From: Chitinophaga pinensis
GTDB taxonomy: Bacteria > Bacteroidota > Bacteroidia > B-17B0 > Aurantibacillaceae
Direction of reading: 5' to 3'
DNA: 64,000 nt
NCBI GenBank assembly: GCA_945887955.1
Contig: CAMCZO010000004.1
Coordinates: 1-64,000, forward strand
In this document: positions 47,722 through 52,122 of the stretch, in pieces
Layout of the letters: every line of letters starts with the position of its first letter
How positions within the stretch are numbered: position 1 is the first letter of the stretch
Notes under the pieces: model-generated
What the model was told of the DNA's origin: nothing
Database searches by the model: none
What the model saw: the letters and a program-made list of their open reading frames with translations, nothing else
Program-made: the position numbers and the translations under genes

Positions 47722-50169
47722 TTAATGTGCTATTATTAATTTTTTTGTAAAGTTGTTTGATTGTGATTTTATATTTAATAAATAAATACCATTAGGAATT
47801 AATGAGGTGTTGATTATTTTTTGTTTTTCTAATTTTTCAACAGTATCCAAATTTATTTTCTTTCCTAACATATCATAAATATTAACTATTGATATTAAAT
47901 TATTTGATGATTTCAAAGATATAATTGTCTCATCAGAACTAGGATTTGGAAAAATAGTTACTAATTCGTTATCTAAATTATTAACATTTAAACTAACATC
48001 TAATAATCCCATACCTTGTATCATAAAGCTATATGAGCTTTCGTCGGCATCAGTATTGTTTATTTTTATTTGAGCCGTTTTTGTACCTATTGAAGTTGGT
48101 TTGAAATCAACAGTAAAACTTTGTGAGGTATTTCCTGCTAAATTAATTGGAAAACTAGGTAGCCCTACTAAAGTAAACTCTGAAGATCCAGTTAATGACA
48201 TATTTGAAATAGTTAATGTTCCAATATCGGTATTTTGAATATTAAATGTTTTTGAAATCACATTATTTAATATTATTGAACCGAAATCAGTGTTGTTTGA
48301 TGTGTTAACTACATTACTTCCAGAAATAATATTTGTGTTATTTCCTTGTAAATTAATTTCGGCAACAGCACCAACACCTTGTATAGCAAAGTCATATAAA
48401 TTTTCGTTATAATCAGTGTTATTTACACTCACAGTTGCATTTCTTGTTCCAACAAATGCAGGATTAAAACTAACTGTAAAGCTTTGTGAAGCACCTGCGG
48501 CTATAGTTAAAGGATAAACTGGTGCATTTATAATTGAAAAGTCACCTGCATTGGTTCCTGAAATAAATAAACTAGTTACAACTAAAGCTCCAGTTCCTGT
48601 ATTTTGTATTAAAAAAGTTTTGTTTACAGAAGTACCAGTATTTCTTGTACCAAAATCTGTATTATTTAGAGCACTAATAGCAGTGTTATTTAGTGGAATA
48701 TTAACAGAGTTTCCTTGAACGTTTACTTCAGGATTTGATGTTGCTGTTTTTTGACTAGTTAACAATAAAATTTGACCACCTTCTACAACTGGAGCCGGAA
48801 TTGAATAATGTGTTTGGTCTACAAACAAAAATTTTCCAGGACCTAAAATAGCTTGCGCATCAAATATTCCTGATGCTTCTTCGTCTTGAGTTAAAAAATT
48901 TGGAGCACCTAGTAAAAAACGAGTTGGGTCATGTTCTGCAATAAGTAATAAGTTATCTGTTGCAATTGTATATTCCCACATTTTAGCAATATGTGCCTGG
49001 TTTCCTGGGTCTTCTTGTAAAATTATATGACCTGAGTTATCAATACCTATGTTATCAAGACTAAAATGTCCTTCTGTGCCATCTAATACTGCAGTAATGG
49101 TTCCACCTAATTCAGGGCTATTTATATTAGTAAATCGGAGTCTCCACATTCTACTATTTGATCCAAATCCATTTGTAGTAACAAAATAAAAATCATTAGG
49201 ATTAGATGGATCCCAAGCGCCATCTTCTGGTCTTAAAAAATTTGTAACACCTAAATTATTACTAATTGTATTTAACGAAGCCCCAGTTATTGCATTTACT
49301 GGTCCTACATTTGTTAATGAAAATGTAGTGTTTGCTGAAGGAAAAACTGCATTAGTTTCGAGAGTAAATCCTGCAACTGAAACACCATATAATATCCCAT
49401 TCATTAAACCTGCTTTGTATATTTCTGATCCTGTTGTAGATTTGTTACCAACATAAACATAAACTTGTCCTGGAGTGGCATCATCAGTTCCAATTACGAT
49501 TGTTTTATCGTTTCTGTTTGGGCTTGCTACTGAGTTTTCCCAAGAAAATTTACCTAGGTAGGGTAATTCAAATGTATTACCAGCATTTGGACCCGTTAAA
49601 ATATGAGCAAAACCTCTTCCTTCAGGACCAGATTCCTCACCATTCATAAAGATTCGTTCTTTAGTACCTTTTCCTGTATAGCTATTATAAAATGCAGAAA
49701 CATCTGGTAAATCAGCAGAGCAAAATCTTGACATTAATGATAAGCTATTTGTGTTACCTGAATTATATGTTGAAAAAGTGCTAGTTGCTGCATTCCATAA
49801 ATTTACATTTTGAATAAGATCTGCACCACTTGTAACTGCAAGTGTAGTTTTGTTTATGATCCATTTTGATACAAATGCACTTATCTGCCCATGAGCTCTA
49901 ACAGAACCTACTGTAGGGCCAAATTCATGATTTAAAAGGAATGTGAATGTCCCATCATTATTATCATATGCCCCCGCGCCATCAGGTATTCCACTCATGG
50001 TATAATTATTAATTACATTTGTAGCGGTTAAGATGGATGTAATTGAATAACCTGGTATTACGGGCAATAAATAAGGTGATTGCGAACTACTTGGACCAGT
50101 AGTTAGTGTTTGTGATAATAGACAGTTGGATATACCAATGCCAAATAAAATAAGTTTGATTTTTTTCAT
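47722..50169 (-). CDS. T9SS type A-exported PhoX/DUF839-like protein with choice-of-anchor domains
   Basis: An 815-residue exported protein with a signal peptide (cleavage near CLLSQ, residue 19). Residues about 30-470 resemble the DUF839/PhoX-like propeller seen in secreted alkaline phosphatase relatives (FTFLLNHEFGPTVGSVRAHG, RIFMNGEESGPEGRGFAHILTG, NDFYFVTTNGFG). Two choice-of-anchor D-type Ig domains (about 485-735) follow, recurring as NNTDFGxxxxxxxxxKTFxIQNT and SFTVxFxP. The C-terminal 75 residues are a Por secretion tail (FPNPSSDETIISL, GKKINLD, NGIYLLNI, KKLIIAH). Phosphatase activity is possible but not proven. Confidence 0.88.
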   Translation of the reverse strand: MKKIKLILFGIGISNCLLSQTLTTGPSSSQSPYLLPVIPGYSITSILTATNVINNYTMSGIPDGAGAYDNNDGTFTFLLNHEFGPTVGSVRAHGQISAFVSKWIINKTTLAVTSGADLIQNVNLWNAATSTFSTYNSGNTNSLSLMSRFCSADLPDVSAFYNSYTGKGTKERIFMNGEESGPEGRGFAHILTGPNAGNTFELPYLGKFSWENSVASPNRNDKTIVIGTDDATPGQVYVYVGNKSTTGSEIYKAGLMNGILYGVSVAGFTLETNAVFPSANTTFSLTNVGPVNAITGASLNTISNNLGVTNFLRPEDGAWDPSNPNDFYFVTTNGFGSNSRMWRLRFTNINSPELGGTITAVLDGTEGHFSLDNIGIDNSGHIILQEDPGNQAHIAKMWEYTIATDNLLLIAEHDPTRFLLGAPNFLTQDEEASGIFDAQAILGPGKFLFVDQTHYSIPAPVVEGGQILLLTSQKTATSNPEVNVQGNSVNIPLNNTAISALNNTDFGTRNTGTSVNKTFLIQNTGTGALVVTSLFISGTNAGDFSIINAPVYPLTIAAGASQSFTVSFNPAFVGTRNATVSVNNTDYNENLYDFAIQGVGAVAEINLQGNNTNIISGSNVVNTSNNTDFGSIILNNVISKTFNIQNTDIGTLTISNMSLTGSSEFTLVGLPSFPINLAGNTSQSFTVDFKPTSIGTKTAQIKINNTDADESSYSFMIQGMGLLDVSLNVNNLDNELVTIFPNPSSDETIISLKSSNNLISIVNIYDMLGKKINLDTVEKLEKQKIINTSLIPNGIYLLNIKSQSNNFTKKLIIAH

Positions 50170-50309: not shown

Positions 50310-50357
50310 TAAACTATTTATTGATAAAAATTTAATTTTGTGTGTGTTTATTTATCG
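50310..50357 (+). repeat. Left 48-bp direct repeat flanking the RAYT element
   Basis: Matches 51105-51152 at 47 of 48 positions. It includes a TAATTTTG -7-like box (50333-50340). The remainder of the 50170-50309 gap is AT-rich and shows nothing else. Confidence 0.9.
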
Positions 50358-50359
50358 CC

Positions 50360-50524
50360 CTTGTTGGTGTTATCACCAACAAGTAAATATTCTCCTTTAT
50401 TTTGCTTTGTTGCTGTTATCATCAAGAAGTAAATATTCGCCTTTGTTTTGCCTTTGTTGGTGTTATCACCAACAAGTAAATTTTTCGCCCTTGTTTTGCC
50501 TTTGTTGGTGTTATCACCAACAAG
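50360..50524 (+). repeat. Four REP-like palindromes in tandem (about 46-48 bp period)
   Basis: Hairpins at 50360-50383 (perfect 10-bp arms CTTGTTGGTG / CACCAACAAG around TTAT), 50406-50429 (decayed), 50453-50476 and 50501-50524. The spacers share TAAATATTC-G/T-CC and TTTGTTTTGCC text. These are likely the transposase's recognition structures. With 50170-50309 they fill the stretch of about 360 bases without a real gene. Confidence 0.88.
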
Positions 50525-50545
50525 TAAATATTGTTAAATTTACAA

Positions 50546-51076
50546 ATGCCAAAATTGCACCATGCAGATAATCCTATACAGTTTTATACTGCTACTATAT
50601 TGGAATGGCAAAAGCTACTAAAACCGAATAAGTACAAACAAATTATTGTAAATAGTTTAGCATTTTTAGTAAAAGAAAATCGTACGAAAATTTACGCCTT
50701 TGTAATAATGGATAATCACATCCATCTTATTTGGCAGGGAACTAAACTACATTCTTTAAAACACTCGCAATTGAGTTTTATGAAATACACAGCACAACAA
50801 ATAAAATTTGATTTAGAAAAACATCATCCAAACGTATTACCATGTTTTCTAGTTGAAGCAAAAGATAGGAAATATCAGTTTTGGGAAAGGAATGCATTAT
50901 CAGTAGATATAATGAGTTCGGAGGTTTTTATTCAAAAGTTAAACTATATTCATAAAAACCCTGTAAGAGCTAAACTTTGCTTAATTGATACAGATTATAA
51001 ATATTCGACTGCGAAACATTATAATGAAATGCAACATGAATTTGATTTTTTAGAGCCCTACAATCAACAACTTTGA
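50546..51076 (+). CDS. REP-associated tyrosine transposase (RAYT, Y1/IS200-like)
   Basis: Single-strand DNA transposase of the HUH family. The ATG at 50546 gives 176 residues with the catalytic HIH at 58-60 in IMDNHIHLIW and the conserved KLNYIHKNPVRAKL near 131-144. In well-known RAYTs a tyrosine follows the WxR motif. Here the matching spot (FWERNA, 112-118) has Asn, so the nucleophile may be Tyr110 or Tyr134. The stop codon ends exactly at the base before the right terminal repeat. The frame has no disruption. Confidence 0.88.
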   Translation: MPKLHHADNPIQFYTATILEWQKLLKPNKYKQIIVNSLAFLVKENRTKIYAFVIMDNHIHLIWQGTKLHSLKHSQLSFMKYTAQQIKFDLEKHHPNVLPCFLVEAKDRKYQFWERNALSVDIMSSEVFIQKLNYIHKNPVRAKLCLIDTDYKYSTAKHYNEMQHEFDFLEPYNQQL

Positions 51077-51104
51077 CTTGTTGGTGATAACACCAACAAG
51101 GGCG
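51077..51104 (+). repeat. Right terminal inverted repeat / REP hairpin
   Basis: CTTGTTGGTG ATAA CACCAACAAG hairpin plus GGCG. It is the exact reverse complement of 50356-50383, so its loop is ATAA rather than TTAT, showing opposite orientation. Confidence 0.92.
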
Positions 51105-51152
51105 TAAACTATTTATTGATAAAAATTTAAATTTGTGTGTGTTTATTTATCG
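51105..51152 (+). repeat. Right 48-bp direct repeat
   Basis: Copy of 50310-50357 with a single difference (A for T at 51131). It contains TAAATTTG at 51128-51135, a good -7 box that probably starts the ars operon. Confidence 0.9.
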
Positions 51153-51164
51153 TATTTTTACGAT
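51149..51164. promoter_or_regulatory. Probable ArsR operator
   Basis: Perfect inverted repeat ATCGTA-TTTT-TACGAT, lying between the -7 box and the arsR ATG. Position and symmetry suit a repressor site; the binding protein is inferred. Confidence 0.5.
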
Positions 51165-51170
51165 TAATAT

Positions 51171-51500
51171 ATGGGTTCAAGTAAAATAAATGACTACAGC
51201 GATCAGCAAAAGTTAATCGCAAAATTTTCTAAAGCATTGGCTCATCCGGCAAGAGTAGCTATATTAAATTTGTTGTTGAAAAAGAAATCTTGTATATGTG
51301 GAGACATTGTTTTAGAAATTCCATTATCTCAAAGTACAGTATCACAACATTTAAAAGAATTAAAAAAGGCCGGATTAATAAGAGGTAAAATCGAAGGGTC
51401 AAAAATTTGTTATTGCATTAATGAATTAGAATGGAATAAAGCTAAATTACATTTGAATAAATTATTTAAAATAACTGTTTTAAATCATAATTGTTGCTAA
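51171..51500 (+). CDS. arsR: ArsR/SmtB-family metalloregulator
   Basis: A 109-residue winged-helix repressor that senses arsenite. It shows [28 protein letters not shown] near 21-48, where the CxC in the helix (Cys40, Cys42) forms an As(III) site. The recognition helix is [19 protein letters not shown], and two extra Cys lie at the C-terminus (NHNCC). It heads the operon arsR - phosphatase-type reductase - Acr3, with gaps of 7 and 2 bases. Confidence 0.92.
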
Positions 51501-51507
51501 ATTATAT

Positions 51508-52122
51508 ATGTATTTTAAAATAAAAATATTTTGCGATAATTTATCGAGTCAATTTAATGTTATTTCAAAAAATAGAAAAAATACACTTGAAAATATAGCT
51601 AATTATATTACACTTAAACAGAAGGAAAATAAGCCAATTCATTTAGTTTATATTTGTACTCATAATTCTCGTCGAAGCCAATTTGGTCAAATTTGGTCTA
51701 GAGTTGCTGCAGACTATTATCAAATAAAAAATATTAATACCTATTCTGGGGGCACAGAAACAACTTCTTTTAATATGAATGCGATCCATTCATTACATAG
51801 ATTAGGCTTCGAAATTAATCCTAAAAACGATTCTTTAAACACTATTTATGAGGTATATTATGACTCTGTTAAAACTCCGATAAATTGTTTTTCTAAATTA
51901 TATAATCATTTAGCTAATCCAAATAATAACTTTGCCGCAATTATGACATGTAGCGATGCAGAGGAAAATTGCCCATTTATACCTGAAGCTGATATTCGAC
52001 TTTTAACTACGTATAGCGATCCAAAAGAGTTTGATTATACTTCTTTGCAAGATATTAAATATGACGAGCGATGTAAAGAAATTGCTTTAGAAACATTTTA
52101 CGTTTTTTCACTTATTAAATAA
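51508..52122 (+). CDS. Low-molecular-weight protein tyrosine phosphatase-type arsenate reductase
   Basis: A 204-residue protein with the LMW-PTPase P-loop variant VYICTHNSRRSQ near 48-59 (nucleophile Cys, then HNSRRS), and MTCSDAEENCPFIPEAD with two further Cys near 147-163. In ars operons these enzymes reduce arsenate to arsenite. It is longer than canonical ArsC, as is usual for the Bacteroidota form. The position between arsR and Acr3 supports this job. Confidence 0.85.
   Translation: MYFKIKIFCDNLSSQFNVISKNRKNTLENIANYITLKQKENKPIHLVYICTHNSRRSQFGQIWSRVAADYYQIKNINTYSGGTETTSFNMNAIHSLHRLGFEINPKNDSLNTIYEVYYDSVKTPINCFSKLYNHLANPNNNFAAIMTCSDAEENCPFIPEADIRLLTTYSDPKEFDYTSLQDIKYDERCKEIALETFYVFSLIK

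Follow-up and report, generated by a model that had tools for sequence, protein, structure and literature searches.

The 64,000-nt stretch analysed here (positions 1 to 64,000 of contig CAMCZO010000004.1, assembly GCA_945887955.1, deposited as Chitinophaga pinensis; hereafter, the window) contains a compact unit in which the gene for a REP-associated tyrosine transposase (RAYT) lies between inverted repetitive extragenic palindromic (REP) sequences. Our main reading, to which we assign a probability of about 0.78, is that this REP-RAYT-REP unit inserted whole into the operator of arsR and generated a 48-bp target duplication, whose right copy kept the arsR promoter and operator, the left copy alone being cut. 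At the loci compared in this study, units of this kind were inserted as units with their ends at the REP tips, with a target duplication of variable length at some sites and none at others. The window unit is a RAYT-class mobile element with new behaviour: the RAYT class and the inverted REP flanks were already known, and the mobility of the unit together with its long and variable target duplication is new.

Architecture of the unit and its empty site

The unit is arranged as a 48-bp repeat, the tag GCCC with the REP palindrome TTGTTGGTGTTATCACCAACAAG, three more REPs, the open reading frame, an inverted REP with the tag GGGC, and the second 48-bp repeat. The direct repeats (50310-50357 and 51105-51152, both unstranded) have a spacing of 795 and an identity of 47/48. 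The ends that they enclose, at 50356-50383 on the forward strand (outward tag CGCCC plus the palindrome) and at 51077-51104 on the reverse strand (also with an outward tag), are exact reverse complements over 28 nt, and are 90% complementary across 39 nt when extended. A preliminary description of this DNA, made from the sequence alone, had reported both pairs of repeats, and its values were reproduced. The left side carries an array of four REP copies in 46-48-bp steps, all on the forward strand, which comprises the terminal REP (50360-50383), a degenerate internal copy (50406-50429; family D2, 83%) and two internal copies (50453-50476 and 50501-50524; family D2, 96% each), the last of which adjoins the transposase gene. 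The right side has a single REP in the opposite orientation (51077-51100), located immediately 3' of the RAYT stop codon. In the window, direct repeats of 36 nt or longer within 2.5 kb fall into no more than two families, the 48-bp repeats and the REP array, both of which belong to the RAYT unit. With so few, the 48-bp repeat is not attributable to chance. Neither the unit nor the REP core was found at a second site in the 2.5-Mb draft genome (G000), where the exact core occurs only at the window locus.

The comparison with a genome of the same genus (G016) reveals the corresponding empty site. The orthologs of the left gene (65.7% amino acid identity) and of arsR (60.6%) are divergent there, with starts 190 bp apart compared with 1001 bp in the window, and the intergenic region contains no RAYT, a single ArsR operator, ATCGTAATTTTACGAT, and no duplication. 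A 16-bp palindrome, ATCGTA(A/T)TTTTACGAT, is conserved in one whole copy just upstream of arsR in G016 and in six further same-genus regions (seven in all; L013-L018, L021), and it is very likely the ArsR operator. In the window, the operator is whole at 51149-51164 on the forward strand (ATCGTATTTTTACGAT), where it spans the end of the right repeat, and the left repeat stops at ATCG (50354-50357, forward strand), the first four bases of the operator, directly at the REP tag. Because the right operator is whole and the left one is cut after ATCG, the unit must have entered the operator, and the 48-bp duplication rebuilt it in front of arsR.

Judged from these sequence comparisons, the 48-bp repeats are a real target duplication. 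The preliminary description had taken the inverted ends and the duplication of a complete RAYT/REP unit to point to an unusual manner of movement, which the G016 site with its one operator supports. It had also suggested recombination between leader copies, for which we found no support, as relatives lack a second copy to recombine with; nor does G016, where one operator and no duplication are present, show what it had named as a ground for refutation, two copies in relatives without the element. An older origin of the repeats, with paralogous or repetitive sequences between which a RAYT lies by chance, does describe some of the surveyed loci, such as a 195-nt repeat of a YjdF-like gene in G065 and L029, which carries an interspersed repeat family. 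The window repeat, in contrast, is non-coding, nearly identical between its copies and without further occurrence in the genome, and relatives hold one operator; for the window, this explanation is hardly credible, as the empty site in G016 refutes it.

The only gene of the unit (50546-51076, forward strand) encodes a 176-amino-acid RAYT, or TnpA-REP-like, Y1 HUH transposase, with HIH at residues 58-60 and Y134 in YIHKNP. This protein has intact HUH (NHIH) and tyrosine (YIHKNP) motifs, both invariant in A1; across the clade, the two motifs are present in 185 and 179 of the 189 members, respectively. The product matched the NCBI family of REP-associated tyrosine transposases, NF047646, with an E value of 5e-20 and 71.8 bits; as the curated cutoff is 80, it is a diverged relative and no member of this curated equivalog, and the protein had no Pfam match. 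Its predicted structure (mean predicted local distance difference test score, pLDDT, of 77) was matched by Foldseek to IS200/IS605 transposases and to the E. coli REP transposase-REP complex 4ER8 with a probability of 1.00 (for 4ER8, E value 1e-4 and template modelling score 0.50-0.54, with a sequence profile match at E 0.005). According to this model, the window protein shares the catalytic fold of the IS200/IS605 and REP transposases.

Flanking repeats and empty sites of related units

Related units share the layout of the window unit and do carry flanking repeats, of other lengths and sequences, whose absence from every other copy would have counted against the preliminary description. Empty sites in relatives were found for two of them (in G003/G021 and in G649) in addition to the window unit. 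The unit in G029 (L183) lies 14 codons into pbpC, between the copies of an 88-bp repeat (84%), of which the left copy completes the upstream gene and the right copy has a frameshift in that part and an intact pbpC start; in G003 and G021 the upstream gene and pbpC adjoin, with a single copy of the repeat and no unit. The unit in G572 (L275/L414) is flanked by a repeat of approximately 62 bp (97%) that contains a terminator as well as the final codons, MQEVK*, of a gene in convergent orientation, and G649 has one copy of this sequence without the unit, whereas in G709, which has the insertion in common with G572, the repeat is reduced to 28 bp. Further clean cases were recognized by inspection, with repeats of 38-40 bp (L360, 100%), about 110 bp (L261, 96%), 92 bp (L039), about 155 bp (L087, 93%), 109 bp (L104), 40 bp (L031, 100%) and 45 bp (L133), as well as at least 219 bp (L117, 99%), where the contig begins within the repeat. 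For L360 and L261, the left neighbour is non-syntenic in the relatives used for the empty-site comparison. Clean duplications thus measure between 38 bp and at least 219 bp, and no two are alike. The duplication noted in the preliminary description is real, but across units it varies in length and is not obligatory, since several recently moved units lack it.

When ten duplicated targets were folded, a strong hairpin (z below -3 against shuffles) was observed in four of them (L031, L275, L360 and L133), two of which are transcription terminators, and no strong hairpin was found in the duplicated target of the window in the same folding. Hairpins in targets may attract the transposase.

To quantify these observations across the survey, we used an anchored test, in which direct repeats must touch both REP tips within 12 nt and score at least 36 bits, with swapped flanks as the null. 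Two inverted REPs surround the RAYT gene at 189 of 227 evaluable loci, and 20 of these 189 units carry anchored direct repeats, compared with none of 378 swapped-flank pairs (best null, 20.6 bits), a null that does not control for REP arrays. An unanchored test gave 17 of 81, against 7 of 269 for shifted centres at the same loci and 0 of 338 for swapped flanks. The masking of inverted matches hides operator or terminator sequence, and the window, L031 and L275 went undetected by the masked test; the anchored test was used instead. We read about 11 of these 20 anchored repeats as clean target duplications; L031 and L275, which do not belong to the 20, are clean as well.

Several findings weigh against our interpretation. 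On our reading, some nine of the 20 are instead duplications of REP arrays, with REPs inside the repeat itself (L058, L121, L198, L274, L278, L342 and others), and these need another process. An anchored repeat is still visible in only about one unit in ten, and several recently moved units (both L320 copies, L354, L355, L078, L067 and L071) have no flanking repeat, which implies that duplication is not obligatory and is one outcome among others. In G016, the operator alone can be aligned with the window, the 48-bp stretch not being alignable base by base because the intergenic DNA there is too diverged. Finally, the nick geometry set out below is a proposal only, and cleavage by the window RAYT is predicted.

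Some of these findings would suit a different order of events: insertion of the unit with no duplication, in the manner of IS200/IS605 elements, followed by a later doubling of the flank through recombination or slippage between REP hairpins. Direct repeats are absent from many moved units, array duplications are common in the surveyed loci, and Bertels and Rainey 2011 (PMC3116915) describe tandem clusters of REPINs, mobile pairs of inverted REPs, together with their flanks in P. fluorescens. Such a process, however, would have to carry a copy of the flank past the entire unit and place it exactly at the other tip, time and again and in unrelated genomes, and the clean-case repeats contain no REP sequence, with the right copy exactly restoring the interrupted operator or gene; we therefore consider later duplication improbable.

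A number of loci were set aside as not clean (L029, L066, L058, L065, L121, L091, L119, L054, L274 and L342), as REPs, a further repeat family or a truncated copy of the RAYT lie within their repeats. In G065, the 195-nt repeat (L184, G065:C40) was likewise rejected as a target duplication, given that the similarity starts exactly at the ATG of the YjdF-like gene, that the two copies differ mostly at synonymous sites and that 33 bp separate the REP from the start of the right copy. At L184, a truncated copy of the YjdF-like gene stands beside the intact gene with the RAYT unit between them; this copy is a paralog or a foreign allele and no target duplication.

Mobility of the unit and a proposed pathway

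Apart from the empty sites, mobility is evident from pairs of units that are 86-98% identical at different loci, with the similarity breaking off no more than a few bases from the REP tips (L355/L354, L078/L069, L090/L262 and L067/L071), and from two near-identical units within one genome (L320). Near-identical units at different loci imply movement as a unit. On plasmids, only distant RAYTs (<35% identity) were present. Tandem RAYT copies occur within one locus at L335, L077, L320 and L111, which would be expected should unequal recombination take place between long flanking repeats.

The pathway that most likely accounts for insertion with and without duplication is one in which each of the two inverted REP ends is joined to a nick in the target, the nicks lying on opposite strands and at positions that are not linked. 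The RAYT, as a Y1 HUH nickase, would cut at the outward-facing tags of both inverted REPs; because the ends are inverted, the tags lie on opposite strands, and each end could join the target separately. Each end of the unit would thereby join its own target 3'-OH, without a fixed spacing between the two joining sites. Target nicks staggered with a 3' overhang would yield, after fill-in, a direct repeat of the length of the stagger, and nicks that coincide or are staggered the other way would leave no repeat or a small deletion. Tandem REP arrays could arise later, by unequal recombination between the long repeats or by slippage at hairpins.

The main rival to this pathway is template switching, in which the RAYT nicks one REP and repair or lagging-strand synthesis copies the unit and its flank by strand switching, the repeat being a re-replicated stretch and not a filled staggered cut. 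The wide range of repeat lengths is compatible with it, the REP-array duplications and partial copies of the RAYT 3' end (L027, L032) indicate re-copying near REPs, and Corneloup 2021 (PMC8266576) names 3'-OH priming of replication as a possible use of TnpAREP cleavage. In the clean cases, on the other hand, the repeats touch the REP tips on both sides and hold no unit sequence, whereas switching would in many cases be expected to bring element sequence along or to make the joints ragged. We regard template switching as unlikely and prefer the joining of two inverted ends to separate target nicks.

Extended to the inverted-ended HUH units of Bacteroidota, this would be a two-strand pathway of transposition, with the two ends joined to opposite target strands at unlinked positions, and not the peel-and-paste of a single strand known from IS200/IS605. 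The two-strand pathway would produce the long, variable target duplications and would be the ancestral origin of REP arrays (bacterial interspersed mosaic elements, BIMEs). We offer this generalization tentatively, at less than even odds. The finding bears on how REPs spread and on whether RAYT genes have been domesticated or can still move, a matter on which published reviews of the data report no evidence of tnpAREP mobility. The clade described here offers dated insertions, empty sites and defined ends, so that the pathway is directly testable in living Bacteroidota such as Mucilaginibacter, Pontibacter or Ferruginibacter. Long duplications explain how a unit can land in operators or operons without breaking either neighbour, and they are a potential source of tandem REP arrays.

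Comparison with known systems

The REPtron (Nunvar 2010, PMC2817692; Quentin 2018, PMC6006769; Corneloup 2021, PMC8266576) has in common with the window unit an IS200/IS605-related Y1 HUH protein, inverted palindromic REP flanks and usually one gene per genome, and according to Nunvar 2010 (PMC2817692) RAYT genes always lie between two inverted REPs. Window-type units differ in that they move whole and duplicate 38 to at least 219 bp of target. The canonical head is GTRG 5' of the palindrome, whereas that of the window unit is GCCC at both ends (GCC(C) among the units), and canonical REPtrons are accompanied by abundant scattered REPs, which the window genome G000 lacks; the REP core has 16-36 copies in G065, G066, G080 and G122, against the window locus only in G000. 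Corneloup 2021 (PMC8266576) found no evidence for tnpAREP mobility, and the statement in the literature that the REPtron does not transpose as a unit, which is no part of its definition, is contradicted here by the three empty sites and the near-identical copies at different loci. The window clade probably stands close to subclass 2.6, a Bacteroidetes RAYT subclass whose flanking structures are atypical, but it is not assigned there because the subclass has a WQ motif and the clade WE. The literature searched, which covered few subscription papers, contained no account of RAYT units that make long target duplications.

The IS200/IS605 elements transpose through a single-stranded circular intermediate, with cleavage guided by tetranucleotides, and in IS608 both ends are cut on one strand and the element enters single-stranded DNA, unlike the opposite-strand joining proposed for window-type units. 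Members such as IS608 and ISDra2 share the catalytic fold and hairpin ends with the window unit. They lack terminal inverted repeats, in contrast to its 28-bp exact inverted ends, and are without larger target duplications (Nunvar 2010, PMC2817692), in contrast to its 48-bp duplication with an empty site. REPINs and BIMEs (PMC3116915) likewise have two inverted REPs as their mobile boundary and form tandem clusters with flanks. REPINs are non-autonomous, with REPs about 70-110 bp apart in the data described, and the sections of that paper cited here report no flanking target duplication or single-copy empty site. Insertion sequences with a DDE transposase, and miniature inverted-repeat transposable elements, make short duplications of fixed length through that enzyme, whereas the only gene of the window unit encodes a Y1 HUH protein and the lengths vary widely.

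Other REP insertions and neighbouring genes

Most of the REPINs and single REPs in G065, G066 and G080 proved to belong to array duplications or to be REPINs embedded in a different interspersed repeat (that of L216 and its copies), with no clean case among them except perhaps L251 (G066:C4:1-1000). At that locus, located at a contig start, a single REP is flanked by two 87-bp repeats of 95% identity, which is possibly a REP-only insertion with target duplication. The loci L214-L225 of G065 have a REPIN of about 75 bp within a larger multi-copy interspersed repeat (of the TCGAGCGAAGTCGAGA type), where many contigs end. In G080 (L027) and G066 (L032), the RAYT 3' end and the right REP are repeated in tandem downstream of the gene.

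The left neighbour of the window unit is a divergent gene for an 815-amino-acid secreted protein (47722-50169, reverse strand), whose ortholog adjoins arsR in G016. To the right, arsR (51171-51500, forward strand) encodes an ArsR/SmtB repressor and belongs to an arsenic-resistance operon of the order arsR / arsC-like / acr3. The second gene of this operon (51508-52122) matched NCBIfam arsenate reductases only weakly, with scores below the cutoff, and had no match in Pfam; its predicted product is a diverged ArsC-like protein.
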